NCBI GenBank assembly: GCA_006384855.1
Contig: VCJN01003421.1
Coordinates: forward strand, 1 to 64,000
Length of the DNA stretch: 64,000 bases
Reading direction: 5' to 3'
Source: Tetraselmis striata
Lineage: Eukaryota > Chlorophyta > Chlorodendrophyceae > Chlorodendrales > Chlorodendraceae
Part shown: positions 24,238-63,794 of the stretch, one piece after another
How the letters are laid out: the number at the start of each line of letters is the position of its first letter
Position numbering within the stretch: the first letter of the stretch is position 1
Made by a program: the position numbers and the translations under genes
Notes under the pieces: generated by a model
Told to the model about the DNA's origin: nothing
Seen by the model: the letters and a program-made list of their open reading frames with translations, nothing else
Databases searched by the model: none

Positions 24238-25083
24238 TGTTGAGTAGTAATATATTATGTTGTTACATGACCTAGCTCCAACATGCGACCGGGAAACCAC
24301 CCAAAAAGGCAAAAAAAAAAACGTCCACAACAACAATTGCCCGGTGGAAGCAGCATCATAAGAGGGTGCGGAATGAGCACGGACAGACGCATCAGACTTG
24401 GCCGTCTGCACTCCGGGAGAGAGAATGCCGCCCAAGCAAGGTACCATGCACACAAGCTGAGACTCGTTGCTACAACCCCCGCCGCGTTCGTGACAAGTGA
24501 TGACGGAACTCAGCGGGCTAGAAGGCAACAATGTTTCGAAGAGCCTGGACGGACTGACCACGAAGGAAGCATGAAGTCGGGGCGGAAGGACCGCGCCAGA
24601 GAAGTTGCGCACAACAAGTAACACCGCGAAGATGTAGACCACCGTTAAAGCGGATTTCCCAAGGCGGCCACTGCCCTCAACCACAAAAGGGTAGTACCGG
24701 TGAACACCCTGCACCTACCGGGGCGGTAGACGCCCGGTCCGCCGCCAGCTTGTTACTGTGCTTCGCCTCGGTCGCCGCGATCCCCGGGGTGCACCAACGG
24801 GGGTCGTTGTCCCAAGTGGGGGTCGTGAAGGACACGCACGCGAAATCGATCATGTAATCGCACGCCTGGCCCGGGCGGGCCCCCCCACCCCGCCAGCGTC
24901 AAATATGACGGCCGCGAGCGGTCCGCCGATGGGCGCTACCCACTCGTCTCAAGATCAAGTCGCCGACTCCCGAGCGGTCCCGGTCGAGCACCGCTCCCGT
25001 TTCAATCGCCACGGAAGCCTAAAGAATTTTTAAAGCGGTATGCATGCGGTGCTTGTAGTTCGTGTGCATGTAGTGTTTGTATC
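24238..25083. other. Fragment of an LTR start plus unresolved 0.8 kb
   Basis: At 24238 the sequence TGTTGAGTAGTAATA matches the first bases of the copia 3' LTR at 36042; about 44 bp are alignable at roughly 80%, then similarity stops. The following 800 bp, up to where the 5' LTR homology begins at 25084, match nothing else in the window. A minus-strand ORF (24714-24208, 168 codons) covers part of it without a recognisable motif. It may be an insertion that split the 5' LTR or the remnant of a second copia copy. Confidence 0.4.
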
Positions 25084-25578
25084 AGTAATAGATTACACTT
25101 GTTTGTTACTGATCTATTGATCTGGCTGTACGACCATCAGCTGCAGTGCTCGACAAAATGCACTTCCCACTGAGAGCTGGATGTGTTGCGCCGATATTTG
25201 GCACTAGTACTTAGGTATAGTACATATATGGCATAATATGTTAAGGAGCTGAGAGCTCCCCCAGCAGCCCAGTTCCTAGAGAGCCATCAACATGCATGTG
25301 GCGAACATGCCTTCTCTAGAATGACCTCAGATGGTCATGCAACTCTGGCCATACTTTAGAGACACGAGCCGCCAGAATAATGGCGGCTCAACAAGCTTTA
25401 TGTACTAGAATACAGTAGTGCCAAGGCGCACCAGCTAGCATCCCCAGCTGAGCCCATCGCCAACATGTGTAGCTGCTGATAGTACTAAGGGCTTAGAGCC
25501 CTACCTGAGAACTGTAACAAGTTCTTAGCCCCCCTTAGCTGCTGCTTGTCTCCAAGGCAACCTGCACAAACTCCAAAA
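25084..25578 (+). repeat. 5' LTR of the copia element (5' part missing or displaced)
   Basis: Begins AGTAATAGATTACACTTG and stays close to the 3' LTR (by eye about 95%, with point changes and two small gaps) until CTCCAAAA. The first roughly 58 bp present in the 3' copy (36042-36099) are absent immediately upstream; a related but divergent copy of them lies at 24238. No standard tRNA-Met primer site (TGGTATCAGAG) follows. Confidence 0.85.
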
Positions 25579-26020
25579 GGTTATTGGCTTACTCCATGCT
25601 GTCGGAGTTGCCTTGCTGACACTCCTATGTGGGCGCGTAGCTCTGTTCGCATGGGTACTGCCGTGGTTGCCCCCACCTGGTCTCATGTGGGCTGCCTTTT
25701 CGGTTGCCCCTCTCGGTTTTCCGAGCGCAGGTGGCGCTCTCGATTCCAACACAACCGGTGTGTTGAGGAGGAGTGTGTCGATCACACTCCTAGACATGCT
25801 TTTGTGCAGCTGCATGTACCCCTTTGGGTGTGACTGCGATTTTCGAGCCCTCGCTGACATCACTGTTTTCGCGCCATGGTGTTTCTAGCTGGTTGTGTCG
25901 GAGCAAGGTGCCCAAGTCTTGCAGAGAGGCGAGTGCAGTGGCCCCAGGCCTCACCTTGTGGGCATATACTGGTAAGAACCCCTTAGTCTGCGTGACTCGC
26001 TAACCTTCGCCACCTTCATC

Positions 26021-27069
26021 ATGGCGGACGCTAACCCGCCATCACGTGTAACCAATGGCATCATCACTGATGGTGCTGCGCATGGAGCAGAGCACTCTGT
26101 GTCTGCTGAGACAGCCGCGGTTGTCACTGCTGCGGAGGCCCAGGCTGCCGCGCAACATCACCAGGCTCTTGCTGCCGCTGCCGCCGTAGCCGGGCTACAA
26201 GCCCCGCCTAGTGATGTTGCAACCGCACTTGCTGCTGCTGAGGCTCATGTGGCAACTACTGCAGCTCGTGATGCAGCTGCTGCCCAAGCTGCAGCAGGTA
26301 GATGACCGCCATCTGCGCCGTAACGCTGAACTCAGGCCCAAGCAGTTCACGTACCTCCAAGTCTCCGACTGTCACGATATCGCAGCCTTATTCCGCATGT
26401 TCCTCGTGCAATGCAAGCAATGCATCAAGAATGTGCAAGGATATCGCACCATGTTTGAGCCCAGTGATGCTGATGACACCTGCAGCAAGTATCACCACCA
26501 CCAGGTGTCCCAGCTACTCTTAGTGTCACCGCTTGACAAGCATCCCATCGCAGTCAATGCGATTCTGACAGCCCGTGAGGATGTTGGGCCCAATGGTCGG
26601 CAAGCTTACCACTGTTTGGAAGCTCTGCGCCTCGAGTTCATCCCGAGTCATGAACGTGACGCTCTCGAGTGGCGCGTCGTGACATGGATGAAAAGAAACG
26701 CTCAACCGAGTCGGTGCGTGACTACGCTCGCCGCCTGGAGCAGTGTCGCATTGCGCTATTGAATGCAGATGGTCACATCACAGATCGTGAAATGTTGACC
26801 CTCTTCAAACATGGCATGAATCCCGAGATTGAGATGTACCGCGTTGCACTGCGCATGGACACTTCACTCACCACTTTTGCTGGCTACAAAGCAGCGCTCT
26901 TCCAATCACTCCCAAGTCTCAGCACGGATCCGACAGGAGCCTTCACCGCGATGTTTGCTCGGACATCCGCACCCCCAGTGGCAGCCGTTTCATCACCGCC
27001 GACCGCTCCATCGCGTGACATTGCCGCCCTAATAGCGAAGCTGGAGCATATATGCAAACTCAGCTCCAA
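26021..27069 (+). pseudogene. copia gag, first part
   Basis: An ATG at 26021 opens an Ala/Gln/His-rich N-terminus (94 codons). After a frame change the reading continues at about 26300-26680 (RPKQFTYLQVSDCHDIAALF) and again at 26669-27073 (RDYARRLEQCRIALLNADGH ... LTTFAGYKAAL). This is the usual layout of a capsid-like retrotransposon Gag with helix-rich middle, but I assign it by position as well as by look. The frame ends at 27073 where the nested insertion starts. Confidence 0.7.
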
Positions 27070-29054
27070 TTGAAATTGAAATTGAATATAACGTCTAGTC
27101 TGCTGCATCCACTCGCTCAAACTGAGTTGTTCTTAGGATCTGCTATCTCTAACCACAGTGGGGAACACGAAGTGTTATCACAGTTCAAGCTATCGGCAAT
27201 CCTCTTATGTTTCCTAGCCCCTCCTCGGTCCAGTGGGCTATAGCTAAGACAACAGCGCCCCCCTGCTATCCCTACCTAAGTCAGACCCATCCCATCCCAT
27301 CCGTCAGGCACGATAAGGCATCCACAGGCGTCCCGCCTGCTGCTACTGAGGTGTGATGGGAGGGGAGGGGAGCTGACCGGAATAGCTGCATGGTGCTTAG
27401 TATTTATGTACCGCTGAGCCGGCTAGCTTGCGGGGGTGGGGGCTACAATGCCCTCCATTTCTAATATTTTTTGGCACAATATACTGCGTTTAATGGCATG
27501 ATGACTTCGTCTCGTGCATGTACCAAGCCCGCGGGTCGGGCGATACACTGTTTGTAATACTTGCGGGGAACAGTGCTGGTAAATTCGAAAAATGCATTCC
27601 GGGCGTACCGGCTAAAAACATCCGTAGTTCTTGGGTTGAGGTGCTAATAGTCGCGGGCGTGCGTCTGGCTTGGGTTTGGGTGCCTTGCCTGCGGAGCATC
27701 CGCATACGGCCTACATGCGGTTGCAAGGGGGTCGTCCGGCGCGGGGGGCGGCGGGGGCGATGAGCCTTTGCCGCGAGTTGGGCCAGGCGGGTCGCCTGGG
27801 CTGGTGTGCTGGTTGTGGAGGTATGCTCGAGGGGTTGGTGGCCTCCGAGGCCTCTCTTGTCGCGGTGGGGGATTGGGCTGCGGCCGGTGGAGCCGGCTCG
27901 GGGTGCGGGGCTGGATCGACGCTTGTCGCCGGCTGATCTTCCGGTGGCGGGTCTTCGCCGTCCATATATCTCCGTGTCTTGAGGGGCTGCCGCGGCCGGG
28001 GGGTGGGCCTCTTGTAGCCGGCTAGTTGGTGGTGGTGGGAGCTCCCCGGGGAGCTGGCCATGGTGCATCGCCGACTGATCGGCTGTAGTCGGCGCCGGTT
28101 GGTCAATAGTCGCCGGCCTCTCCCGCCTACGCGGGTGCATGGTTGTGGCTGCGACGAGTTTCGCGTCGGATCCCGTGTTAGTGGCGAGTCCAGCTCCGCT
28201 CACCCCTGTCGGAGAGGCGGCAGCCGGCATAGGGGCGCGTCGGGTCACCGCCCGGACGTCGTGAGTTGATGTGTGTGCCCCGAGCTTGGGGCCGAGGGTG
28301 CGGATCGGGTTCAGAAGGATACGGCGCATGTCGACCCCCGTCGCATGGTTGCGGGTCGCCATATCGTTGAATAGTAGGGCGACTTGTGTGGCACAGTCGG
28401 TACCAGGGGGAAGATCGATTGGGGGCTGGCGGAACTGGCGGCGCAAAACGCGGCGGAGACGGCGGATAGCAGGTGGGAGTCGGATGCCTGTGAACTCCTT
28501 TGCGGCAATGGTAGTTGGGATTTTGGGGGTTGGGCTCTGCCGCTGCGCGGCGTATCGATAGGGCCGCCGACCGCGGAGCCCTGTTGCTCCTCGGGTATGT
28601 TGGTGTCCATGTTGGCTGTTGTGGTAGTCTCTTGTGGAGCCTGCTCTTCACGCCGCTGTGGGTGCTGGCCGGCAGTTGGCCTGGGGCGGGCAACAGGTGG
28701 AAGTCGGCTTTTAGCGTTTTTTTTTTAGTGATGGTTGTTCGGGTCTTGGGGAGTTGGGTCTTGCCGCGGCGCAGCTTATCGAGAGCGGCGCCGACCGCGG
28801 CCTTCTGCTGCTCCTCGGGTCTGTTGATGTCCATGGTGGCTGTAGTGATTATCTCCTGTGGAGCCTGCTCTTCACACCTCTGTGGGCGCTGGCCAGCAGT
28901 TGGCCTGGTGGTGGGTCGTCCGGTCGTCGGGCGGTCCACCGTTTCACAAGAGTACACTATCATCACCAGTAGAGCCGCGCCGGCTTGCCCGGATTTAGTA
29001 CATACGCAGTACTTCGCCCGGTGTTAAGGGTTGGCAGGAAAGTGAGAAGTACTT
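27070..29054 (-). mobile_element. Nested insertion in copia gag with 8-bp target duplication
   Basis: The octamer AGCTCCAA flanks this 1985-bp segment (27062-27069 and 29055-29062). Removing the segment and one octamer rejoins the gag reading. The left end carries TTGAAATTGAAATTGAA, which on the minus strand is a short tandem 3' tail as in many non-LTR retroelements. The minus strand is open for long stretches (28966-28178 and 28446-27490, Pro/Thr/Ala/Arg-rich). No reverse transcriptase motif or clear terminal inverted repeat was found, so it is probably a non-autonomous or truncated element. Confidence 0.65.
28500..28925 (-). repeat. Tandem duplication inside the nested insertion
   Basis: Two adjacent minus-strand units of about 230 bp encode related peptides in two frames: EEQAPQEIITTATMDINRPE and, in the second unit, EEQAPQETTTTANMDTNIPE, each followed by EEQQ, AVG and a KTQLPKT/RAQPPKS segment. 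The shared protein reading suggests the duplicated unit was once coding. Confidence 0.7.
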
Positions 29055-31130
29055 AGCTCCAAGCTTAGTCACGGGCAAGCAGCAGATTCCGGGGCCGCCA
29101 CGCCGGTCCTAGTGCCTCTCGCACCTCTCGTCCGTTCACTAGCAAGTGTTGGAACGGTGGGCGTGAAGGGCACCTACCGTATCGCGTGCTTCAGAATGTC
29201 GTGGCAAGACCCATGTTGCGGCGGACGCTGGTCCAGTAGCTACCGCAGCTACTCACGACTTTGGCGCACTGTCATTCAGGTTCCTTGCAGATGACACGAG
29301 TCTCCCGTTTGCTGAAACCCCTCATGCCGCTGAAACCCCACTGCCCCCAATACCACCACAAGCATGGTCGGTTGACAGCTCCGGTGTCAGATTGGTGCCC
29401 AGCTCTCTAGTGTCCCTGCCGCGGATGAAGCCCGTTTGGCACCCTTACCTTTGTCGCCGAGAGCAGACCGCTCATGATCTCCCCACCAGCCCGCTCTCCA
29501 ACACCCGGGCCTGGTATCGGCGCGCTGTCATTCAGCTTCCTTGCAGATGACGCGAGTCTCCCGCTTCCTGAGACCCCTCATGCCGCTGAAACCCCCCTGC
29601 CCCCAATACCACCCCAAGCATGGTCGGTTGACAGCTCCTGTGTCAGAATGGTGCGCAGCTCCCCAATGTCCCTGCCACAGAGCCCGTTTGGCACTCTCGT
29701 TTGGCAGCCTTTGTCGACGAGAGCAAACCGCTCATGATGTCCCCACCAGCCCACACATGAGTCAATCCATGCGTGCTCAAGCCCTCCCGTGGCACGTCGA
29801 TTGTCAGCGCGTGCCAAGGGCAAAGGTCCGGCGCCCATCCCCGATGCGCGCAGCCCCAGCGCGCATGGAGGGAATGCATGCATGTGGCAGTGGGTGCCAA
29901 CCAAGACTCGTCACGGCGTCAGCGCGACAAGCGCGGTAATAACCAAAAATAAAATAAAATAACCACTCCGCTGGCGGCGATCACAGTCAACATGTACCAA
30001 ACATTGGCGGGAGGGCGTGGACTTTGTGGCCCTGACGAAGAACCTCTCCTTGCGCGGGAGCGTGAGACACTCGCGCGAGCACATGCCCTCGCAGTGGAAG
30101 AATGGGCCACACAAGCCGCAATGGAGGAAGTGGCTGCAGCACATGTCATGAAAATCAAGGAGTTGATTTCGGAGCCATCGATCCTCAGCCCCTCGGAACG
30201 CCGTGACGAGGAGCTCAAGTGGCTATATCAGTACGTGTACGAATGTCACCTCAAGAATGTGCTAGCTGCATAGCCGCATCTAATAGCCCTCCCACAGAGT
30301 GGCCGCCGTACCAAGCGCCAGATGTGTCAGGCTTTCAGCCGCATGCGGGGCAGACGCCAGCCCCCTCCCAAAATGGCTGCTCACCCGGTTAAGACCCGAA
30401 TGGCTCGCCAGTCTCACACAGAGCGGATGGAGAGCTCAGCTGCAGTTGCGGCTATGGAAGCGTTTCAGAGCACATATCATGACTACGACTACAATGGCTC
30501 TCACTTGCTCGCGAGACAGCCGAGGGGCGGTTCAGTGCGCTCAGCATCCGCCGTGAACATCCCGCGCCCGGCACGGCGTCCACTGTCGACGCACCAAAGA
30601 CGGTTGCGCAACACTCCAAGTCTAGGCAACCTGATGCATGTCAGCAATGCCTACACTAACAAGACATACAGTGATGGAGACATGCCTGACCTCGGATCCA
30701 ACTCTGACACACCAGACGACCTTGATAAGGATGAGGATGAGCGCTCTGCCCACACCGAGCACACCGAGGGAGACATGCCGTCTCGCTCCCGACTCCAACG
30801 ATGACATCAGTGATCCGGACTACGTACGATGTTGACTCTCCCGGAGATGCTTACCTGAGGCGTGCGCTGACAGCGCTCGCGGAATTGCAGCACGCTGAAG
30901 CTCGTCACCATGACAACGGGCTGATTGACCGCGATGCCAAGCGACAATGGCGACGCCGCACAAAGCGTCAACGCCGCCGAGCTCGCCGCCGCGCACATCA
31001 TTGGTTCACCCGCACTGACGCTGCAGACCAACTGGCAGCATGGGCTGCATGCCAACAACAAGAGCGTGACTGACACCCAGGACAGCATTGCCCCTCTCAT
31101 GGAGATTCAACACATGAAACCTGATAGCAC
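29055..31130 (+). pseudogene. copia gag C-terminal part and spacer before the methyltransferase
   Basis: Soon after the insertion, about 29147-29190 encodes a degraded zinc knuckle (KCWNGGREGHLPYRV): the first Cys and the His are present, the second and last Cys are lost. Downstream ORFs at 29992-30273 (an acidic helix-rich stretch with EEWATQAAMEEVAAAH) and 30322-30804 (basic, then acidic) are unrecognised but lie in line with the element. The layout suggests a long Gag-methyltransferase precursor, now broken by stops. Confidence 0.55.
29257..29760 (+). repeat. Tandem duplication in the gag region, about 263-bp period
   Basis: The block from GGCGCACTGTCATTCAG (29261) to about 29495 recurs from GGCGCGCTGTCATTCAG (29520) to about 29755 with roughly 90% identity. 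Both copies encode LADD(T/A)SLP followed by ETPHAAETPLPPIPPQAWSV, showing the repeat arose in a coding frame. Confidence 0.8.
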
Positions 31131-32085
31131 AGCTTTCAGCAAGTCACGGCCTATTCACTATGTTGGCCTATGCAGCGGAGCAACTTTCGCCATCCTTGGT
31201 GAGCTGTGCTCATTAGGGCATCGTTTCAGTATGGTGACGCTGGTAGAGAACGACCGTGCAATCGCAGCCGCAGCTCAATCGGAGCTACATACTCTGCAAC
31301 GCAAATGGTCTCACAGCTTGCCACGTACGGCCGTGGACAATGCTTTTGATCGACTCCCATCACAAGATGTCAACCAACTCCCGGCTAAGGACTTCTAGTC
31401 CCTGCCACCTGTCGACATGTTGGTCAGCTCCCCACCGTGTCAACCGTTCTCTGTTGCGGGGCTCAGACTAGGACTCCGAGACGACCGAGCACAAGCATTC
31501 TATGCGACGACCAGACTCATTTATGAGATCCAACGCCAACAGCCGCGTTGTCCAACTATGTCGTGGAAAATGTCACTGGCGCAGCTCGGTCACCACAGAT
31601 CTGCGCAGCCCTTGGGCAGCCCATGCTCGCACGAGCGCACGAATTTAGCTCCACCGCACGCCGTGACACTCCATTCTGGACCAACATTTACAGCCTTGAC
31701 GCCCTGCGACGATACTATCAGCGATTTGTGAGAACACCAGTGACAGTGGATGACATGCTTACCCGCCGTGGCAGCTTCTCGCATGCATGGGCGGCTCCCC
31801 CGCACCTGAAAGACAACGTCCTTCCGAAACTCCTGCGCTGTCTCGCAAGGGAACCTGGGCATACATAATGCACGGCCCAGCCCCGGGCCGCGGCATGCTG
31901 CTCCTCGATGGAGTCTGGACGGAACCTGACTGCGACGTCCGCTGCGAAAGCACGGGCTTCGATCAGTCCACGCTCAACCTCCATGGCATATCTGAGGACC
32001 TACGACGTCGTGCACTTGGAGCGTGTATTGATGCCAATCTTGCTCCCCGGTTGGCTTTCGCTATCTCCGTGATATCGTGGAACTC
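31120..32085 (+). pseudogene. Cytosine-5 DNA methyltransferase domain carried by the copia element
   Basis: It would transfer methyl groups to cytosine-5 in DNA. Motif order is canonical. The AdoMet site is at about 31150 (HYVGLCSGATFAILGELCSL, then VENDRAIA). The catalytic loop is at about 31425 (MLVSSPPCQPFSVAG, with the Cys of PCQ). Motif VI is at about 31552 (NYVVENVTGAA). An FWTNI segment near 31678 stands where RRxR(F/W) motifs lie. A C-terminal motif X-like segment is near 32000 (DLRRRALGACIDANLAP). It lies inside the LTRs, after gag and just before the protease, on the element's strand. One in-frame stop (31396-31398) and two frame changes (about 31540 and 31860) break it. The motif I and FW spacing look nearer DNMT3/DRM-like enzymes than DNMT1, an impression only. 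Confidence 0.85.
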
Positions 32086-32103: not shown

Positions 32104-32480
32104 ACACCTTTCCTGACCAGTGGGTGTTCGACACCGATGCCACGCCCCATTATATGGCCGCTTGCTTCGCAGACTACGCCAGCGCCGGTGATCACCAAAC
32201 TATAACCCAACGATTATGGATCACTGGGCTTGACGCGTGCGCAATGGGTGTGGGCAACCACCTTACCATGCAGACTGAGGATGGGCGCTCTGTGTCTTCC
32301 ATGGTCCGCAACTGCCTACACCTATGGTCCCCGACCTTGCATCGAAATCAAATGGACGCGTACTTCGGCTGTTCTGTGCGCGAGCCGCTCAGATACCCAA
32401 CACATATTCAAACTGATGATGACAGCTCAGCGCAATGCCATGCAGCTATCCGATGCCGTATCTGTTCCCTTTGAGGTCAA
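32104..32480 (+). pseudogene. copia aspartic protease region
   Basis: The reading WVFDTDATPHYMA matches the copia protease start (W-x-x-D-S/T-G-A-T-x-H), with the active-site Gly replaced by Asp. About 110 codons follow before a frame change, with TGLDACAMGVGNHLTM in the flap region. The replaced Gly would probably inactivate it. Confidence 0.7.
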
Positions 32481-32564
32481 TGGTCAGCTCTTTGTGCTGA
32501 GCACATCAATCACTACCACTCGGCCATCGCTGTCCGCCGACACATCGATCTAGCTCCACATGCA

Positions 32565-33480
32565 TGCTGGCAATGCGCTCGCGCCGAAGGAAGATTTCAA
32601 GATGCTGTGGCACGCTCGGTCATCTCTATGAGCGTGCAATGGATGCCGCTCAGGCAGACCACGACGTCCCCCGCTATGGTCACCTCCAGCACATCAGCTT
32701 CCCGTTCTGTGAGGCGTGTGCACTGGTCAAGTCGACCACTGCACCGATGCCACGCCGATGCCACGACAAACACACTGTCCCGTTCTCACTGGTAGGTTGG
32801 GACTTCTGGGAAACAAGAACTTCATCTTTGCAAGGCAATACCTACTAATGTGGCGCCTTCGACTACGCTTCGTCCATGGCATGCCTGTACTTTGTGCGCT
32901 ATCGCTCTGCGGCATTTTCCTCTCTGCGCGCCTTCAACACAATGGTCGTCAACCTCGGATTCACTGTGCAAGCCATGCGACTTGACAATGACACCACGTT
33001 CCGGAGCGCAGCATACACTGCCGCCTGCGACGAGTTGCAAGTGCGTCGCACATATGCAGCCCCGTGCAATTAGTTTCAGAATGGCCTCTCTGAGCACTCG
33101 TGGCGCGCGCACTCTCCGTACCTAGGCGCGCTGCATGCTTACCCATGCCACTCTCGCGGACTCGTACTGGGAGTTTGGTATGATGGTCTCAGTCCATATC
33201 CACAACCGCACCATGCGACGAGGCGTCGCGGATACCCCACTGCGGAAAATCACCGGCGCCGTGCCCGACCTGTCCTACCTGCGAGTGTTCGGATGCCCAA
33301 CCTCTGTCCACACCCCCGGAGAGAATCGGCGCGAACTCGCTCACTCAGCCCCGCAATGGCATTTTCGTTGGCTACTCGCCCGACTCCCCAGCATGGCTAG
33401 TCTACATGGTTGACATGCGCACCGTCATCGCCAGCCGGTCCGTCGCTTTCGATGAGACGCCCCATGGTCCCGCCATGGCG
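32565..33480 (+). pseudogene. copia GAG-pre-integrase and integrase
   Basis: The HHCC zinc-binding region is visible as LWHA, a frame change, then LGHLYERAM and FCEACALVKS. The DDE core follows in another frame (WDFWETRTSSLQGNTY, YFVRYRSAAF, MRLDNDTTF). After one stop, FQNGLSEHSWR holds the Glu region. The C-terminal part reads SYWEFGMMVSVHIHNRTMRR ... LRVFGCP ... FVGY, typical of copia integrase. At least four frame changes separate these pieces. Confidence 0.8.
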
Positions 33481-34240
33481 ACTGATGTGCCAGATGAGTG
33501 GCATGCTGCCGTTCAAGAGGGGTCGAGACCACCATCAGCCTCAAGAGGGGCGTCCACCTCAGGAGGGGTTTCCACCTCAGGAGGGGCATCTACCTCAGGA
33601 GGGGCATCCGCCCCTGGAAATTCCCGACCCCCCGCTGCCCCACATGCGCAGTACCGCAGCCCATCGACCCACTACCTCTTGCCTGGGGCCCTACCCGGAG
33701 CTGCAACCGTATCCACAGCGACGGCGACGGCGGCAGCGACGACAGCAACCACGGTGATACTCGTGACAACACCCGGTGCCCGGTTCCTCAGAGCCTACAG
33801 CGCATCGCGAAGCAACACCTCCGCCTCCGAGCAGAAAAATCACTCCCCCTCCTCCTATGCCACGAGCTCAGCCCCCTATTATCACCCCACTGCCCCTGAC
33901 ACCAGCCATTCGTGCGCCGATTGTCCCCAATCAGCCACTACGATCCGGCACTCTTCCTGCGACCGCACCGTCTTCATCAACCGCGCCAATACATGTTGCA
34001 GCAGCACGCACCCGACATGACACCCGAGGATGAGTGCGCAACAGACACCGCAGAATGTACAATCGAGATGATGGTTCGTGGCAGACTCGGTCTAGGACCT
34101 ATTTTGCGGCGCAGTGATGACCGGCGGGTGCCCCGCACATGACGAGCTGTCATTACTGTGCTTCAGCCGCAACATTGACCCAGCCGACTGGGCACTCGCG
34201 GCAGGCGAGGCGCTTGGTGACCCTATCACATTCGAGGAGG
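33480..34240 (+). other. Low-complexity spacer between integrase and RT of the copia element
   Basis: Pro/Ser/Thr-rich coding-like DNA with a short minisatellite around 33540-33610 (repeats of TCAGGAGGGG). This is the usual variable linker between integrase and RT in copia polyproteins. No domain is visible. Confidence 0.6.
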
Positions 34241-36047
34241 CGAGCAATGGCCCCAAGGCACCACAATGGATGGAGTCCATGAGACAGGAGTACACTACGT
34301 CATTGGTCCGACGTGGTACGTAGAAGTTGGTACCCAAGCCTGGAGGTGGTCGCAGAGTCGTTAAATCCAAGTGGGTGTACAAAACCGAACACAATCTCCT
34401 TTAATGGGACTGTGTCAAAGGAGAAAGCCAGGCTCTGCACCAAAGGGTTCACCCAAGTGCAAGGCCTCGACTTCACGGAAACCTTCGCACCGAGGGTGAA
34501 GTTTACCACCCTCCGCGTCATCTTCTCCATTATTGCTCACTTTGACATGCACATGGAACAAACCGATGTCGACCGCGCCTTCCTCTACACTAGTCGAGAT
34601 GAGAAAATCTACATGGAGCAACCAAAGGGCTTGTCGTTGAATATTTGCGGGTGGCTCGCCTTGGCAGCAATGTATGGTAAGGTCGAGATATGTTAGAAAC
34701 GTTCAGTCAGCATGAAATGCTGCATCAGCTGTGAATACCGCATAGTTTCATAGGGCATCCAATCATCTCCGGTTTCCGGTGAAATTCTGGAATCTGACTT
34801 TGAACAGTAATGTTTTGCCCTTTGCATATAGTCTGGGATATAGTAGTGCCAACTTACAGACACAGATCGCCCTAATGGGGGCCCCCTCGTCTATCACCTC
34901 CTCAAAGCGGTCTATGGATTGAAGCAAGCGCCACACAATTGGCGCCGTGTTCTTCGGGACTTCATGATCACTATGAACTGCAGACAGTTACGAACATATC
35001 ATGGTGCTTATGTCTACCGCAGCAACGATTCGGCAATCCTGGCAATTATCGCCATCTATATTGACAAAATCCTGATCGTCAACAACTCTGTGGCCTGGAT
35101 TGCATCATTCAAGGAGTCCATGGAAGCCCGATTTGACATCAAGGACCTCGGCAGCCGCTCATGGCTATTGGGAGTCAAGGTTGAGCGAGACCGAGCAGCA
35201 GCCACGCACGATCACCATTCATGAGTCAAAGTACATCCATGACGTGCTCGCTCGATTTGGAATGGAGCAGTGTTGTGCAACCAAGTTTCCCGGTAGGTGT
35301 GGCCAACGACCCCCGCGAGTCCGAACAGTGCACCGAGACCGAGGTCAGCACCTACTGCAGTCTTGTGGGAGCTCTGCTCTGCGCCGCATTCGCCACTCGG
35401 CCAAGTATCGCTGAATCAGTCGACCGACTGTGCCGATTCATGTCTAACCCAATCAAGGCACACATGGAGGACGCACGATGCCGTCCGAGGTACATCAAGG
35501 GGGCACACAGCCGTGTTATCACCTTTGGTGGCGAAGGCAAGCTGACACTACATGGATACAGTGACGCCAAGTTCCCGACGACCTACCCCAGTCAATTCAA
35601 GCCTACTACCGGCTACGTTTTCTTCCTTTGCGGAGGAGCAATCAGTTTTCTGTCGAAAGTACAGGCACTGGTGGCCCTGTCCACAGCAGAGGCAGAGTAC
35701 ATCGCTCTCTGCATGACAGTGCAAGAGGCAGTGTTCCTGCGCCACATGTTAGAAGAACTGGGCTTCCGGCAGACAGCACCCACTCCCGTCGGTGAGAACA
35801 ACCAGGAGTGCACAGTCATCGCCACCACGGATGTGACGTCAACGCGCACCAAGCATCTAGACATCCGACTTCATTTCGTGCGGGAAGCCATCAAGCAGGT
35901 GCCGTGCGCATCCACTATGTGCCAACTCATGAGATGCTTGCAGATATGTTTACCAAAGCACTGCCACGACTTCAATTTGAGGCACTCAGGGCTGAGGTCA
36001 TGAATGACATGCAAGCTGCAGCAATAACCAGTGAGGAGGGGTGTTGA
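34240..36047 (+). pseudogene. copia reverse transcriptase and RNase H
   Basis: RT begins with WMESMRQEY and KSKWVYKT, then KGFTQVQGLDFTETFAPRVK, DVDRAFLYTSRDEKIYMEQP. It resumes after a short insertion with GGPLVYHLLKAVYGLKQAP. The catalytic YVDD is changed to YIDK (about 35058). RNase H (35221-36003) shows YSDAKF, SFLSKVQALVALSTAEAEYI and TSTRTKHLDIR. The extreme C-terminus (LADMFTKALPRLQFEAL) is in another frame, ending at 36047 just inside the 3' LTR. Confidence 0.88.
34632..34857 (+). other. About 226-bp insertion in the RT gene
   Basis: The RT reading stops after MEQPKGL and resumes at TDRPNGGPLVYH about 226 bp later. These two pieces are adjacent in other copia RTs. The inserted DNA is AT-rich, with no TIR or clear target duplication. 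GTAAGGTC-like and terminal AG sequences exist, so a spliced intron cannot be excluded. Confidence 0.5.
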
Positions 36048-36611
36048 GTAGTAATAGATTATATAATTACACGAGCTAGCTGCAGAAGGCGATATCAAAA
36101 GTAATAGATTACACTTGTTTGTTACTGATCTATTGATTTGGCTGTACGACCATCAGCTGCAGTGTTCGGCAAAATGCACTTCCCACTGAGAGCTGGATGT
36201 GTTGCGCCGATATTTGGCACTAGTACTTAGGTATAGTACATATATGGCATAATATATTAAGGAGCTGAGAGCTCCCCCAGGAGCCCAGTTCCTAGAGAGC
36301 CATCAACATGCATGTGGCGAACATGCCTTCTCTAGAATGACCTCAGATGGTCATGCATGCAACTCTGGCCACTACTTCAGCCAGTACTTTAGAGACACGA
36401 GCCGCGACAATAATGGCGGCTCAACAAGCTTTATATACTAGAATACAGCAGTGCCAAGGTGCACCAGCTAGCATCCCCAGCTGAGCCCATAGCCAACATG
36501 TGTAGCTGCTGATAGTACTAAGGGCTCAGAGCCCAACCTGAGAACTATAACAAATTCTAAGCCACCCTCAGCTGCTGCTTGTCTCCAAGGCAACCTGCAC
36601 AAAATCCAAAA
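36042..36611 (+). repeat. 3' LTR of the copia element
   Basis: Starts TGTTGAGTAGTAATAG directly after a purine tract, the expected LTR boundary, and ends at AATCCAAAA, where similarity to the 5' LTR ends. Positions 36100-36611 match 25084-25578; it has a duplicated CATG and an 18-bp block (CTACTTCAGCC region) lacking in the 5' copy. Confidence 0.85.
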
Positions 36612-41800: not shown

Positions 41801-41923
41801 ATTTCAAAGTTGAGTCTGGTTTTGCCAAAAAGATCGCACAGGCTGCTTTACACAGTCAAGAGCCGAAATTGGCAGGAAGGTAAAGTGAAAAGCGTGGAGG
41901 GAAAACGGAGTCAGGGGGGCGCT

Positions 41924-42109
41924 GCGTGTAACGCAGCGAAAATTGGAAGATGGCAGGCTCAGCTGTTACGGCTGCTTTTATGTCTACAAGTGCTGCACCC
42001 AAAAAAGGGCGCAACGACAGGTGCCTAGTTCCCGTACCACTAAGCAGCACTTGTAGCCGAAAAGCGGTTAGGGAAAGGGAGGAAACCCCATGAACTAGTT
42101 TAGATCATT
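41924..42109 (-). repeat. Split direct repeat copy A2
   Basis: About 186 bp matching 44842-45026. Each copy contains an inverted repeat (TACAAGTGCTGC ... GCAGCACTTGTA in this copy) that could fold into a hairpin around about 50 bp. Confidence 0.9.
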
Positions 42110-42134
42110 TCAAAGTTGAGTATGGTTTTGCCAG
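42108..42134 (-). repeat. Split direct repeat copy B1
   Basis: 27 bp, ATTTCAAAGTTGAGT then ATGGTTTTGCCA, matching 41801-41827 at 26 of 27 positions. It abuts the A2 repeat with a two-base overlap. Confidence 0.8.
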
Positions 42135-42186
42135 TGATGAGCGAACGGAGAGAGCGGTGGATTGACGGAGAAGGGGTAGCGCCAGG

Positions 42187-43788
42187 TCATGAAGGGGGCA
42201 CCGGGAAGGCCACCGCGGCGGAGTCTTGTTGGACTTGGAAGTGGCGGAGGGGCGCGATGTGACGTCCGATGCAGAAGAACCATGCGCCAGGCGAAGGAAG
42301 AACGTTGGGGTCGATGTAGTCCAGAACGACGTCGGAGTTAGTGGCCCAGCCGCCTTGGTAGCGAATGTGGGACAGTGGAGCTCCGATGGCGTTTGCGGCA
42401 GACGATGCTCCCTTGCGAAGGCTGTGTGAGCTCCAGGAAGTGCCGGCGAGTGGGGCAGCACCGACAAGACGGACGGCTGTGGACAGCCAGTCCGACATTG
42501 TAGCGGCGGTCCAAGATTTGGACTGCTCGCTTGGGGTGACTGCCCAAAAGCTAGTCTCGCCAAAAGCAACAGAAATCAGGGGGACAGACTGTACGTGGTC
42601 GATGAAGTGGTGCAGGAGACGTGCAACGCAAGGGTGTTCGGACACCGGAGGGAGCAGCACGCGCAGGTCGTCGGGTTCTCGTCGACCCGCGCGGCATTTC
42701 TCGCGGTACACCTGCAGGGTTATTTTGCAATCGTCGACATGCACATCCCGCACTCGGCAGGACACGCCAGTATGTCCCCTGGCAAATAAATGAAGTTGAC
42801 AACCGAGGCCACGAGCCAGGGCTCGGAGGTTGTACTGGTACGCTGGAGTGGGAGCAGACACAATCAACTCTGCCCGCTCGACGAAGCTGTAAGCGACATC
42901 AGCAGGCAAGGAGACTCGCAAAGGGGCAGCCTCCAGCCGACGCTGCCGTAGCATTAGCCCACGACGAGCTGCGGTTAGGTGCACGCTGTCCTTAGCGATC
43001 GGGTCGAGGTTGTGCAGCTCGAAGAACGTGTTGATTGCGGGCAGGTAGGGCTGCAACGACTTAGCCCCACTATGCCCTCGCTCACCAACCCAAGCAACGT
43101 ACCGGACGACAGTAGCGGTGGTCGCTTCCAGCGGGCTGATGTTCTCAGAGTCGTGGCAGAACTCCGCGAGCTGAGAGAGTCTGCCGGTGTAGCTCTTGAG
43201 GTCCATAGCGGTGAGGGAGCTGGAGAGTAGATCGAGAGTCCGTTGTCCCAACTCGTCTGAGCCGAATGCGTCCTGCAGCCGAGACCGGAGCGAAGCGGCC
43301 CAGGAGGCTACAGCTTCGGGCTCGTCAATTATGTAAGTGCGGCGCTTGGCGGACAGAGTAACAGAGGGACGGTAACTATTAGCAAAGTACTCGGGAACAA
43401 CGGTTAGGTTTCCGGCGGTTGGCCGGTAGCTTCGGGATGGGTTTGCCACAACATCAGTACATGTTTGCGGGGCTATGTTCAGGTAGGATGGCCGCCCCGC
43501 GCGCCCTAAATCGCGCTCATAGCGCCTGGCACGCGCGTAACGTACACGCGCGAAGCTTGTTCGTTGTGAACCAATTGTAACACGCAATGTAACAACCGAC
43601 GGACGCAACGGTGATATCGAGATGGTATGGAAAGCGGTTTGTTGAGCCGCGCGCCATGTGCAGGTGTGCGGATGGTTGAGCCGCACTCGGCTGTAGCTGT
43701 AAGAAGCGCCGCACCGAGGAAGATCTAAATGAAGTCTGTAAGGTGGGGGGGGGGGGGGGGGGGTCAGGTCCTGGCATATGGCGTTCAT
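42187..43788 (-). CDS. Tyrosine recombinase of the YR element
   Basis: A site-specific DNA recombinase that would integrate the element through a phosphotyrosine intermediate. The ORF is 533 codons without interruption. The convincing part starts near 43350. An N-terminal SAM-like core-binding region (SYTGRLSQLAEFC, VRYVAWVGERGHSGAKSLQ) is followed by the catalytic domain: Arg-bearing LHLFARGHTGVS, the HxxR box in SSHSLRKGASSAANAIG, IRYQGGWATNSDVVLDYID with the Trp of the GGW segment and the presumed nucleophilic Tyr. The N-terminal 100 or so codons pass through a C-run at 43745-43763 and may be intronic or untranslated, so the true start is uncertain. There are no frame breaks, unlike the copia element, so this gene may be young or active. 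Confidence 0.85.
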   Translation of the reverse strand: MNAICQDLTPPPPPPPYRLHLDLPRCGASYSYSRVRLNHPHTCTWRAAQQTAFHTISISPLRPSVVTLRVTIGSQRTSFARVRYARARRYERDLGRAGRPSYLNIAPQTCTDVVANPSRSYRPTAGNLTVVPEYFANSYRPSVTLSAKRRTYIIDEPEAVASWAASLRSRLQDAFGSDELGQRTLDLLSSSLTAMDLKSYTGRLSQLAEFCHDSENISPLEATTATVVRYVAWVGERGHSGAKSLQPYLPAINTFFELHNLDPIAKDSVHLTAARRGLMLRQRRLEAAPLRVSLPADVAYSFVERAELIVSAPTPAYQYNLRALARGLGCQLHLFARGHTGVSCRVRDVHVDDCKITLQVYREKCRAGRREPDDLRVLLPPVSEHPCVARLLHHFIDHVQSVPLISVAFGETSFWAVTPSEQSKSWTAATMSDWLSTAVRLVGAAPLAGTSWSSHSLRKGASSAANAIGAPLSHIRYQGGWATNSDVVLDYIDPNVLPSPGAWFFCIGRHIAPLRHFQVQQDSAAVAFPVPPS

Positions 43789-43882
43789 CCCGTTGTTGAG
43801 CCGCTAGCGTTCGCCTTGCGGCGGTCACCGAAAGGTGGCCTCGCAAAGCTCTAGCAGCTCCGACGAAAGGCGACCCACACCG

Positions 43883-44724
43883 TCACTCGTGCTCACCTTC
43901 GCGGCCACGCCCGCGCCCGCCACCACGCCCACGCCCACGCCCACGCCACGCAGCCGCGGCCGCTACCCGAGCAGTAGCGGTTGCCTTGGCGCTGCTGGCA
44001 ACCGTCGCCTCGAAGACGCGACGCTCGTAGTCCCTCATGAGGTCCCCAAAAATCGCGGAACCTAGATGCTCAGAAGCAGGCTGAAAAGGCTGGGCTCGCA
44101 GCATGTCCATATTAACACCTTGATCAATGTGCACACGCTTGATCTCATTAAGCCTCCGCAAGAAGGCCTAACGAAAGCGAAGCGCCTTGTCGATGGCTTC
44201 GGCGTGATTCCGAACACGTGCGAGGTATGTAGGGGGTAACGTCTTGATTTGCAGCATGGACGTAGGGTAGCAGCTCTTCGAGAGCTACGAAAAGTGCGGC
44301 CTTGTAGTGGGCGCCGAAACACGACATCCATATATAGATACTCCTCCTGGGCCGGCAGACGCCGGTAATCCTGCTTGAGCGAGGTACTCGTTCGTTAGGT
44401 CGGTGCTCAGGGAGAAGAGTCCAAGCACTCGGCTGACCGGTATTCGAACGGCCTCGTAACTAGACTCTAGGCCAGTCTCATGCCGCCCCGGGCTAGCTCT
44501 AGCAAGTCGGGGCGCACTGCGGCTCCCCCGCTGCATGTCGGCTGTCTCGCGATGCGTTGCCCGGACCCGGAGCCATGTGCTCCTTCTGCATCAACAACAC
44601 GGTCACGAGCCGTCAATTGGGCCAACGCTATTGCAAGCTCGCGCAGCAATGTAGACTGGGCATTCACGTCTGCGTGTAGCGATTCGAGCGTCGGCAAAAC
44701 GATGGCTTCTTCTCCATCTGACAT
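43883..44724 (-). pseudogene. Gag-like ORF1 of the YR element (frame-broken)
   Basis: An ATG at 44724 opens MSDGEEAIVLPTLESLHADV with a helix (LRELAIALAQL). After a frame change near 44475 the reading goes on with SYEAVRIPVSRVLGLFSLST. The last part (44161-43883) reads LNEIKRVHIDQGVNMDMLRA and ends in an Arg/Gly tail. A nucleic-acid-binding RG tail at this position fits a Gag-like product, but no domain is recognisable. At least two frame changes are needed; introns are an alternative. Confidence 0.45.
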
Positions 44725-44841
44725 GATAACGCACGGACGTAGGGATGAGAATTTTCACACACGGGTGGTAAGCCGGGTGTGGTCTTGAACAACATGGGGT
44801 GCTTTGCTCGCAACAGGTTACGAGACAGTTTTAACATCGCC

Positions 44842-45026
44842 GCGTGTAACGCAACGGCAACTGGAAGATGGTAGTCTCAGCTGTTACGGCTGCTTTTATG
44901 TCTACTAGTGTTGCACCCAAAAAGGTCGCAACGACAGGTGCCTAGTTCCCGTACCACTAAGCAGCACTTGTAGCCGAAAAGCGGTAGTTAGGGAAGGAGG
45001 AAAACCCATAAATTAGTTTAGATCAT
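44842..45026 (-). repeat. Split direct repeat copy A1
   Basis: About 185 bp with the same start (GCGTGTAACGCA) and the same end (TAGTTTAGATCAT) as the A2 copy at 41924-42109, including the TACCACTAAGCAGCACTTG half of the hairpin. Confidence 0.9.
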
Positions 45027-45482: not shown

Positions 45483-46800
45483 GAGGTGAGTCAGTGAGCC
45501 TTTGTGTGTGTCTGCCTGTCGCCCACTTTCGGAAAAAATTTCGCATAGATTGTTAGGTAGATCCAAAATATATCCGTTGTAGATTCCGCCATAATTCCGC
45601 GCAGGCCAAAATAACCGTCGCGCTTTCCATGCGCGGACTACCTGTACATGTACCGTACATGTTCCGGTATACGGGTACCGGTCGGCCTGTTACCCGGCCG
45701 CCCGGCCGCCGCCGGTCGGGGCGGCCTGTCGTCGCCGTTCGTCATGTCAAACCGTTCGCCGTTCGATACATGGCGCGAAGCGCCGAGCCCGCCGCGTGGA
45801 CCGGACCCGGACGCCGGTAGCCGTCGGTCGTCCGTCGAGGTGAGTCTGTGGGTCTTTCTGTCTATCTGTCGCCGACTTTCGGGACGGTTTCGCATAGATT
45901 ACATGGTATTAATTTAATCGACAATGTATCCGTTATAAATTCCGTCATAATTCCGCGCAGGCCAAAATAGCCGCCGCCGCGCTTATTACAGTACCTACGG
46001 CTGACTACTATGCATGTACCGGTACGAGTACCGGCCGCCCGGCCGCCGCCGGTCAGGCCGGTCATCGCCGTTCGTCAGGTCTACGGGGCGGGCATGGCGC
46101 GAGCCCGCCGCTTCAACCGGACCCGGACGTCGGACGCCGTCTTTCGTCCATAGATGGACGCCAGACGATCGTCGCCCGTCCGCCTCGCCGCTCATCCGTC
46201 GACGGACGCATGGCCCTGGGTCGTCGGGTCGGCGGACGGGGGGCCGTAAAATGTAGCGGCTACTACGAATGATCCTTGCGGCTCTTTGGATTCCACACTC
46301 AAGCAACGGGTCTTCTTGTTACGAGGTGAGTATGTGAGTCTGTCTGTCTGTCTACTGTGAATCTGTCTGTCTGTCGCCGACTTTCGGAACGGTTTCGCAC
46401 AGATTATTAGATAGATTGAAAATGTATCCGTTATGGATTCCGTCATAATTCCGCGCAGGCCAAAATAGCTGACTACCTGTACCGGTACGGATACCAGCCG
46501 CCCGGCCGTCGTCGTCGGTCGCGGGCCGTTCGTCGCGCGCCGCTGGTCAGGTCTACGGAGCGGGCATGGCGCGAAGCTCCGAGCCCGCCGCGTGGACCGG
46601 ACCCGGACGCCGGACGCCGTCGTCCGTCCGTCGCTAGACGCCGGACGACCGTCGCCCATCCGCCTCGCCGCCCGTCCGTCGATGGACGCCGGGCCCCGGG
46701 TCGGCGGGTCGGCGGACGCGGGGCTGTCCAATAATGTAGCGACTACTACGAATGATCCTTGCGGCTCTCTGGACTCCACACTCGTGCAACGGGTCTACTT
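45483..46800. repeat. Three-unit tandem repeat, 355 and 485 bp apart
   Basis: The core GTGAGTC ... CTGTCGCC(C/G)ACTTTCGG ... TTTCGCA(T/C)AGATT ... ATTCCGCGCAGGCCAAAATA occurs at 45483-45620, 45837-45983 and 46321-46472. Each core is followed by a CG-rich block (GGACCGGACCCGGACG type), and the last two by ATGATCCTTGCGGCTCT. On the minus strand the peptide EPQGSFVV recurs in units 2 and 3. A related inverted copy is at 19660-19830. Confidence 0.8.
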
Positions 46801-46869
46801 GTACATGCTATTATTACGCACATATGTGCTAGACAGCTGCATGTGCTGGGCATATCCGCAGTAGGCAAT

Positions 46870-62970: not shown

Positions 62971-63072
62971 CACCGTGACGAGATTTCCAACACTGATGGA
63001 TCACCGTCTAAAACACTCCCCGTTTGTATGAGTTCCATGGTCGGTCCGACCATCAGACCCGGGAACTTATGC

Positions 63073-63145
63073 TGACTAGGGCGCTCAGTGGCAGAGCGAG
63101 TGACTACGAGTATGTAAGTCGGCGGCTCGAGACCGGCCGGGCCGT
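63073..63145 (+). other. tRNA-like sequence with A and B boxes
   Basis: An A-box-like GCGCTCAGTGGCAGAGC (63081-63097) is followed 26 bp later by a B-box-like GGCTCGAGACC (63124-63134). An acceptor stem is not convincing. Probably a tRNA-derived SINE head or tRNA pseudogene. Confidence 0.35.
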
Positions 63146-63356
63146 GAGAGCTTAGTCGTCACTGCATATTCGTACCGGTACTGTCTCATCTCGTAACAAA
63201 GACGCAGTGATTCGGTACCGGGGTACGTCGCGAATTGAATGAGGACCTGAAAAATGGGCCAACGCGCGGATAGGCGGGCTGGTCCCAGTTCGCCTAGGCC
63301 GTCTGTCCGGATTACGAGTACCTGTACCCGTAATACCGGCAAAACCTTTAACAGGG

Positions 63357-63430
63357 TACATCCCTTGTCCGCTCGGTAGAGCGGTCGTCTCGTGTGCGAG
63401 AGGTACCGGGTTCGATTCCTGGCCGATGTA
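63357..63430 (+). other. tRNA-like sequence (74 nt), degenerate
   Basis: The length is that of a tRNA. Ends pair (TACATC with GATGTA), the T-arm is good (CCGGG TTCGATT CCTGG), and the D-arm has CGGTAGAGC. Acceptor positions 6-7 mispair, the D-stem has one mismatch, and the anticodon arm gives only four pairs with a six-base loop. It is therefore more likely a pseudogene or SINE head than a working tRNA. Confidence 0.4.
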
Positions 63431-63794
63431 TTTCGGCAATATCGGCCCGGCGTGTCCCGGGTTTACTCGGTTGATGCATTAGCCCTTCGGGGTTCGAATG
63501 AGGCAATGGTCTATGGGCTATGCCAGACCTACGACTGCAGTTGGCGCACGAGGTCAAGTGCTGGGGCGGCTTCGGCCGATGTCCCGGGGCGAACTTTTAC
63601 TGCCATGAAAATACCCGGTACTGACCACGACGGGCCGCCCTACCCGTTTGGGCGTCGGCCCATTCGAGTAATGCTTAGTCGTAGTTATTTTCTCACGGCA
63701 CTGGCTTTGACATATGCGCACCAAAACTGACCTAACTGCTTGATTGCGAATATGTTTTAAGGCACTGAGTAGTTCCCCTGAGTACTACGATTCC

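Follow-up and report, generated by a model that had tools for sequence, protein, structure and literature searches.

A decayed copia retrotransposon with a C5-cytosine methyltransferase between Gag and protease belongs to a large, old group of methyltransferase-carrying elements

The window analysed here is a stretch of 64,000 nucleotides from Tetraselmis striata (assembly GCA_006384855.1, contig VCJN01003421.1, positions 1 to 64,000, forward strand; contig C2757 of the 224-Mb host assembly of 2,903 contigs). It contains a dead copia element bounded by long terminal repeats (LTRs), with a C5-cytosine methyltransferase (MTase) located between Gag and protease. As a decayed copy, it belongs to a large and old Ty1/copia group that carries an MTase. 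The MTase domain (31143..32060, + strand) spans motifs I to X in decayed form and was aligned to the intact MTase L024:219-1130. Motif I VGLCSGATFAIL (31162-31197), VEND (31243-31254), PPCQPFS (31432-31452), VVENVTG (31560-31580) and RRALG (32006-32020) are all present on the + strand, in the order given in an earlier note on this DNA. That note had proposed the captured MTase and a profile search as a check. In this search, a 110-aa open reading frame (ORF) carrying PPCQ matched Pfam DNA_methylase (E 1.7e-9, 38 bits); since the score exceeds the curated cut-off of 22 bits, the match is not due to chance. The ORFs covering motif I and motifs VI-X, which are decayed or short pieces, gave no Pfam match alone, and these parts were identified through alignment with intact copies. 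An in-frame TAG near 31397 interrupts the domain, and the reading frame changes near 31550 and again near 31840; the copy is therefore dead.

The MTase is followed, on the same strand, by the usual copia functions. The aspartic protease (PR; 32127..32326) starts with FDTDATPHY (32127-32153), which reads DTGATSH in the intact copy C2193, and Pol_BBD is matched in L024 (1.5e-6). The decayed GAG-pre-integrase, integrase (INT) core and SH3-like domain (32327..33540) were located by tblastn to copy A, with gag_pre-integrs, rve and SH3_retrovirus matched in L024. The reverse transcriptase (RT; RVT_2, E 4.8e-15) occupies 34102..35236 and is interrupted by a 221-bp insertion (34645-34865). The end of RT and RNase H (RH) lie at 35299..36044, 86-89% identical to copy A, with the motif ALSTAEAEY at 35674-35700. 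The 5′ LTR (25074..25578, + strand) starts with TGTT and ends with AAAA, its ends being set against two copies flanked by target duplications; the 3′ LTR (36090..36611, + strand) has an approximate start. Both have a CpG observed/expected ratio (o/e) of 0.34. They were found as a direct repeat pairing 25084-25578 with 36100-36611, 93.8% identical over 517 aligned bases, which bears out the earlier description of an LTR-bounded copia element. No target duplication was found around the window copy. Directly after the 5′ LTR stands GGTTATGGCTTACTCC, which may resemble the copia primer site (half-tRNA-iMet, the anticodon arm of the initiator tRNA).

On the Gag side, gag is decayed and split. Its first part (25976..27069, + strand) is 88-89% identical at the DNA level to gag of C2193, and the match of Retrotrans_gag to the ORF 26660-27073 stays under the Pfam cut-off (E 0.089). 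A nested dispersed repeat of 1,981 bp (27070..29050), foreign to the element proper and absent in C2193, then separates it from the second part. Both flanks of this repeat carry AGCTCCAA, and it has 44 genome matches, itself included. The nested insert with shared flanks is thus an unrelated repeat and not the MTase segment. The second part of gag (29051..29512, + strand; 80% to L023:7436-7864) holds the degraded zinc-knuckle region, with the remnant ECRGKTH at 29194-29214; the intact knuckle of C2193 is CWTCGRPGHRESEC. A 163-nt direct repeat (29263-29425 and 29519-29681, offset by 256 bp) overlaps this part. The Gag-MTase linker (29519..31142, + strand; 87% to L023) includes the arginine-rich stretch RRRTKRQRRRARRR (ORF 30741-31073) just before the MTase, and comparable stretches precede the MTase in copies of families A, B and C described below.

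Intact relatives show what the window copy has lost. With the MTase stretch as DNA query, 32 genome matches were obtained. The copy C2193 is a single open frame of 2,483 codons, running from behind the 5′ LTR to the 3′ LTR. Read in pieces, this frame contains Gag with a CCHC knuckle, an arginine-rich linker, the C5-MTase and a DTGATSH protease, followed by Pol with gag-pre-integrase, integrase, SH3-like domain, RVT_2 and an RNase H motif. In a second copy, C2518, the frame stays open as far as the integrase side and shifts ahead of RT. The LTR pairs of both are 98.45% identical, and 5-bp target duplications (ATGTA and GGCAG, respectively, read by eye) flank them. Because these copies have near-identical LTRs and target duplications, the MTase transposes as part of the element. 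The open frame shows a predicted Gag-MTase-Pol polyprotein, in line with the Gag-methyltransferase precursor suggested earlier, and a free-standing MTase ORF did not appear among the intact frames read. The Pfam order in this family (A) is Pol_BBD, gag_pre-integrs, rve, SH3_retrovirus and RVT_2 (7.2e-61); zf-CCHC (E 4.4e-4, 20.6 bits) falls slightly under its cut-off of 20.8.

The MTase is under purifying selection. Against C2193, the ratio of nonsynonymous to synonymous divergence (dN/dS) in eight decayed A copies and the window copy was 0.24-0.43 for the MTase, 0.25-0.47 for PR-INT and 0.28-0.71 for Gag, for which one copy gave no match; C2518 was excluded from this count, being too close to C2193. 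The median pN/pS of the MTase in 8 copies was 0.36 in the true frame, as opposed to 1.03 and 1.53 in the other frames.

An RT search of the genome identified the family of the window copy (A) and five related families, and the MTase is carried immediately before the protease in five of these six (A, B, C, E and F). Relative to A, identities in RT and MTase are 71% and 52% for B (L041, frames of about 2,299 codons), 59% and 45% for C (L042, frame of 2,147 codons), 37% and 33% for E (L044, longest frames 2,152-2,164 codons) and 34% and 33% for F (L045, longest frames 2,085-2,162 codons). The remaining family, D (L043), is 49% identical to A in RT and has a frame of 1,561 codons without MTase (one frame read). 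In B and C the MTase sits between the Gag knuckle, which shows the CCHC pattern, and the protease, so that with the uninterrupted copy C2193 the capture between gag and protease is established. E and F, whose sequences were taken from the MTase onward with Gag outside the stretch examined, extend the capture beyond family A with the MTase directly before the protease. Across the five families, 22-32 aa separate MTase motif X from the protease Asp. The knuckle of D, CWQCGGPHFKRDC, is one residue short of the CCHC pattern. B and C share the PR-INT-RT Pfam order of A, and D does likewise with RVT_2. F matches gag_pre-integrs, rve (just below cut-off), SH3 and RVT_2, and E matches SH3 and RVT_2, with gag_pre-integrs under cut-off and no rve match; both have the protease motif DSGAS. 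PF00145 was matched by all five family representatives at E <=0.1 (best 7.7e-12), with the motif order I-IV-VI-VIII-X.

The association holds across loci. Among the matches listed, an MTase lies upstream of RT at 4/5 A, 14/15 B and 32/38 C loci, that is 50/58 for A-C, as against 0/91 D loci, the zero resting on the MTase list from the A query and on the one D frame read. The test required the same strand and a window of 0.5-4.5 kb (observed distances 1.9-2.3 kb), and took 149 of the 150 RT rows listed, one partial A row being omitted. The earlier note had named copies without the domain, together with a target duplication of the segment's own, as signs of a later insertion; four of the five A loci carry the domain. 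At least 125 MTase rows were found with the A query, 21 of those listed belonging to open frames with 2,000 or more codons, and at least 129 with the F query; in these MTase lists, some loci contribute two rows. Copy survey, dN/dS and pN/pS thus agree with the expectation of several copies that keep the domain in one position and under purifying selection.

Two features of individual families were noted besides. Family D occurs in several copies per contig on C1776, C805, C440, C1230, C411, C1435 and C1303, mostly in both orientations, a packing which resembles nested, perhaps centromeric, arrays. In an F-related subfamily (59-72% identity, about 40 rows, including C1912:281442, C124:5488, C835:95918 and C427:324971) the MTase match covers motifs I-VIII only, from residue 1 to about 205. 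Frames of 1,203-1,237 codons hold ten of these rows; the C-terminal half appears to be missing, relocated or strongly diverged.

The element fits the known kind of DNMT-bearing retrotransposon, with an MTase in the coding region, many copies and purifying selection. Its domain order and RVT_2 place it outside the LINE, DIRS and Gypsy classes, and it is therefore not a SymbioLINE, SymbioDIRS or KnitGypsy element. A close likeness in the accessible text of PMC5890265 (de Mendoza et al. 2018) is KnitGypsy-Dnmt3 of Klebsormidium nitens, also an LTR retrotransposon of a green-lineage alga with a captured C5-MTase in the coding region, several copies and purifying selection. That element is a Gypsy, with the MTase in the Pol polyprotein ORF and a DIRS-like repeat layout, whereas the one described here is a Copia (INT before RT, RVT_2) with the MTase between Gag and protease. 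SymbioDIRS-Dnmt3 and SymbioLINE-Dnmt of Symbiodinium are likewise retroelements with a captured C5-MTase, many copies and purifying selection, but of the DIRS (tyrosine recombinase) and LINE classes, and the Copia elements of Symbiodinium are described, in the same accessible passages, as being without a DNMT domain (PMC5890265). The earlier note had named captures in dinoflagellates and a charophyte alga; capture by retroelements is indeed on record there, with the classes slightly off, the charophyte case being Gypsy and the dinoflagellate cases LINE and DIRS (PMC5890265). Elements with Dam- or Dcm-like MTases are also retroelements with a DNA methyltransferase, with green algae among their hosts, but belong to Gypsy and DIRS clades, and those of the Dam-like type act specifically on adenine and have an unrelated structure (accessible parts of PMC6338049 and PMC5890265). 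According to its available passages, PMC9998398 found no DNMT3 among the green algae whose transcriptomes it covered.

New are thus the Copia class as carrier, the position of the MTase on the Gag side of the protease, the old clade in which an internal loss is probable and the linked LTR composition described below. One sentence in PMC12344493 (2025) places some DNMT3 members in 'LTR Copia and DIRS' elements, which, if real, would match the kind described here. Its citation is to the 2018 paper, where the text reads Gypsy, and the available passages describe no Copia structure; 'LTR Copia' could be an error or a find not yet described, and novelty is threatened mainly by this sentence. Subscription papers and preprints aside, searches of the accessible literature turned up no described Copia element with a C5-MTase beyond this mention. 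With this element, Copia joins LINE, DIRS and Gypsy as described captors of a C5-methyltransferase. The earlier attribution to a green-algal lineage is consistent with the genome's 63 matches to chlorophyll a/b-binding proteins and its single match to the RuBisCO small subunit, the latter on a contig of at least 68 kb; these mark the host as a photosynthetic eukaryote, probably one of the green lineage.

Hosts silence transposons by cytosine methylation, and an enzyme retained through five families raises the question of the benefit to the parasite. The identity of the MTase and its capture by a copia lineage are nearly certain. As best overall explanation, to which we give a probability of about 0.5, the Gag-side MTase would methylate the element's own cDNA, combined with a CpG-poor LTR promoter. 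Gag, MTase and Pol would be made as one polyprotein and, because it is in frame with Gag and Pol, the MTase would enter the virus-like particle alongside the reverse transcriptase. Its substrate there could be cytosines of the element's new cDNA, in CpG or other context, methylated before integration or at that step. A copy so marked would integrate pre-methylated and could pass for host DNA; alternatively, pre-methylation could protect it from deaminases or nucleases, or could mute the copy, sparing the host. The nearly CpG-free LTR promoter would remain transcribable under CpG methylation by element or host. Taken alone, cDNA methylation as the function of the MTase is a tentative assignment, with somewhat less than an even chance. 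SymbioDIRS-Dnmt3 enzymes perform de novo CpG methylation in yeast, and de Mendoza et al. proposed cDNA as substrate for SymbioDIRS (accessible text of PMC5890265).

The LTR component draws on CpG counts. All 14 full-length family-A LTRs measured have CpG o/e of 0.13-0.35, those of C2193 and C2518 being among the lowest (0.13-0.16), and five partial LTRs give 0-0.39. By comparison, family-A ORFs are at 0.80-0.83, and none of 438 overlapping 500-base background windows reached 0.35 or less. Among 13 aligned A LTRs, five CpG positions are common to 11-13 and 19 of the 24 others occur in one LTR only, so that the CpG poverty is inherited and not a product of decay. A stronger version, in which the copia clade runs its own epigenetics with cDNA marked in the particle and LTR CpG stripped by selection, is doubtful. 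If true, a self-applied or host mark would silence nothing that the element needs, D would have regained a CpG-rich LTR once the pressure was gone after enzyme loss, and enzyme and promoter composition would be a co-evolved pair.

Flanks of other families point towards self-methylation with a CpG-poor promoter: after the ORF, CpG o/e is 0.38 in B (221 nt; background frequency of <=0.38 at this length 0.017) and 0.21 in C (141 nt; <=0.21, 0.005), as against 1.33 in the MTase-less D (201 nt; >=1.33, 0.112). Each value comes from one short locus with LTR limits not fixed, and the link between LTR CpG and MTase is a hint and not a rule. Several observations weigh against the explanation. ORF CpG o/e is 0.80-0.99 in MTase families and 0.80 in D; since the bodies are like that of D, cDNA methylation has left no clear trace of deamination in them. 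C-to-T changes in nine decayed A copies, one of them the window copy, affect 368/7,827 CG, 393/8,440 CHG and 454/17,752 CHH sites; they are raised at CG and CHG alike relative to CHH, and CHG transversions are raised too, so that the contexts are confounded. RT-RH has lower dN/dS (0.13-0.43) than the MTase in most copies. Eight of 58 A-C RT loci have no upstream MTase row among the matches listed. The MTase-less D is numerous, with 91 of the best 150 RT rows listed, and therefore the MTase is not needed for multiplication; the 2018 authors make this point for Symbiodinium as well (PMC5890265, accessible text). Finally, where PPCQ is usual in motif IV, C has PPCA and E has PCCE.

The altered motif IV neighbours in C and E, together with the roughly 40 F-related rows matching residues 1-205 only, could mean that in some families the domain is a DNA-binding or structural module and no longer a methyltransferase. 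We consider this unlikely, as the catalytic C98 (motif IV), ENV141-143 (motif VI), R173 (motif VIII) and G289 (motif X) are invariant in the five representatives, one per family.

It is improbable that the MTase acts instead in trans as a counter-defence on host chromatin or silencing, for example by scrambling or titrating host methylation. The arginine-rich stretch before the MTase in A, B and C resembles a nuclear localisation signal, and apparently spliced host C5-MTase genes are listed (C726, C1756 and C11; sequences not read), so that host methylation is probably live. However, the in-frame fusion with Gag and Pol favours action in the particle, and the intact frames read showed no separate MTase ORF. 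This alternative and self-methylation can be compared directly, since one genome holds MTase-bearing and MTase-less families together, with CpG-poor as against CpG-rich LTRs (for D, one short flank).

Profile matches of the copia MTase are M.HaeIII (5.2e-9), tRNA (C38) methyltransferase as second-best (2.1e-7) and DNMT3A with a best value of 9.5e-7. The second of these raises the idea of an RNA substrate, the domain methylating genomic RNA or the tRNA primer in a DNMT2-like manner, and the Gag-adjacent site would put the MTase on packaged RNA. DNMT3A/B/C alignments, on the other hand, continue past motif VI through motif VIII (about 72-183), while the best stretches of DNMT2 end after motif VI, and the CpG-poor LTR points to DNA. 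We give an RNA substrate little credence.

As to the number of captures, the unrooted PR-INT-RT tree is ((E,F),(D,(C,(A,B)))), with support of 100/99 for E-F versus A-C and 72/74 for A+B; its long E and F branches meet and an outgroup is absent. The MTase-less D, between A-C and E-F, and these long branches would allow the MTase to have been captured independently, twice or more, at one position. This is improbable for several reasons. The MTase tree agrees with the PR-INT-RT tree, and the MTases of A-C and E-F align end to end (30-36% identity) with a common protease-side junction. With the A MTase as query, F scores 139 bits and E up to 172 bits, as opposed to 24.7 bits for the best solved-structure match, M.HaeIII, obtained with a 260-aa part and a different program. 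Outside matches covered only about 50-130 residues each, largely near motifs IV-VI, at 27-45% identity in 14 IMG/VR loci (448 stretches) and 16 GTDB loci (291), in scans seeded by exact motif patterns that may miss relatives; they provided no close donor, and a viral or prokaryotic donor was rejected. With mutual scores high and outside matches weak or local, the MTases of the copia families seem to form a group of their own. Unless the root falls on the D branch, D lost its MTase. One capture followed by loss in D is likely, and we infer one old capture held under purifying selection. The RT alignment, scanned against IMG/VR, yielded no outside copia elements for a root, and an additional genomic copia RT tried as outgroup turned out to be a D relative. 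That the MTase is a functionless passenger inserted by chance in one copy, as the broken window copy might suggest, has negligible probability and is already contradicted by the copy survey, with its five families, more than 100 MTase rows (some loci giving two), long uninterrupted frames and purifying selection; a later insertion into one copy is rejected on account of the shared place in five families.

Other C5-MTases of the assembly were also inspected. Three non-copia MTase stretches were read; by eye, none is similar to the copia enzyme, and no host donor was recognised among them. Two of them, L076 and L078, are one multi-copy type (98.5% identical DNA over 548 bases). This type occurs in 325-codon frames at six places (C1993:505-1440, C776, C1647, C2337, C355 and C1455) with similar scores; its motif VI is MEQSA and not ENV, it is by eye unlike the copia enzyme, and it is possibly another mobile element or a viral insertion. 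The third stretch, L077 (C2009:28948-30681), is a C5-MTase ORF of bacterial or phage look on a 135-kb contig, and the assembly may include bacterial contamination.

Outside the element, the window carries a dispersed repeat at 63020-63597, 92% identical to L023:2648-3213 in the flank of the C2193 copy. Direct repeat families of 69-86 nt, with spacings of 300-500 bp and 2.9 kb, are present at 45539-46802 and 41920-44985.

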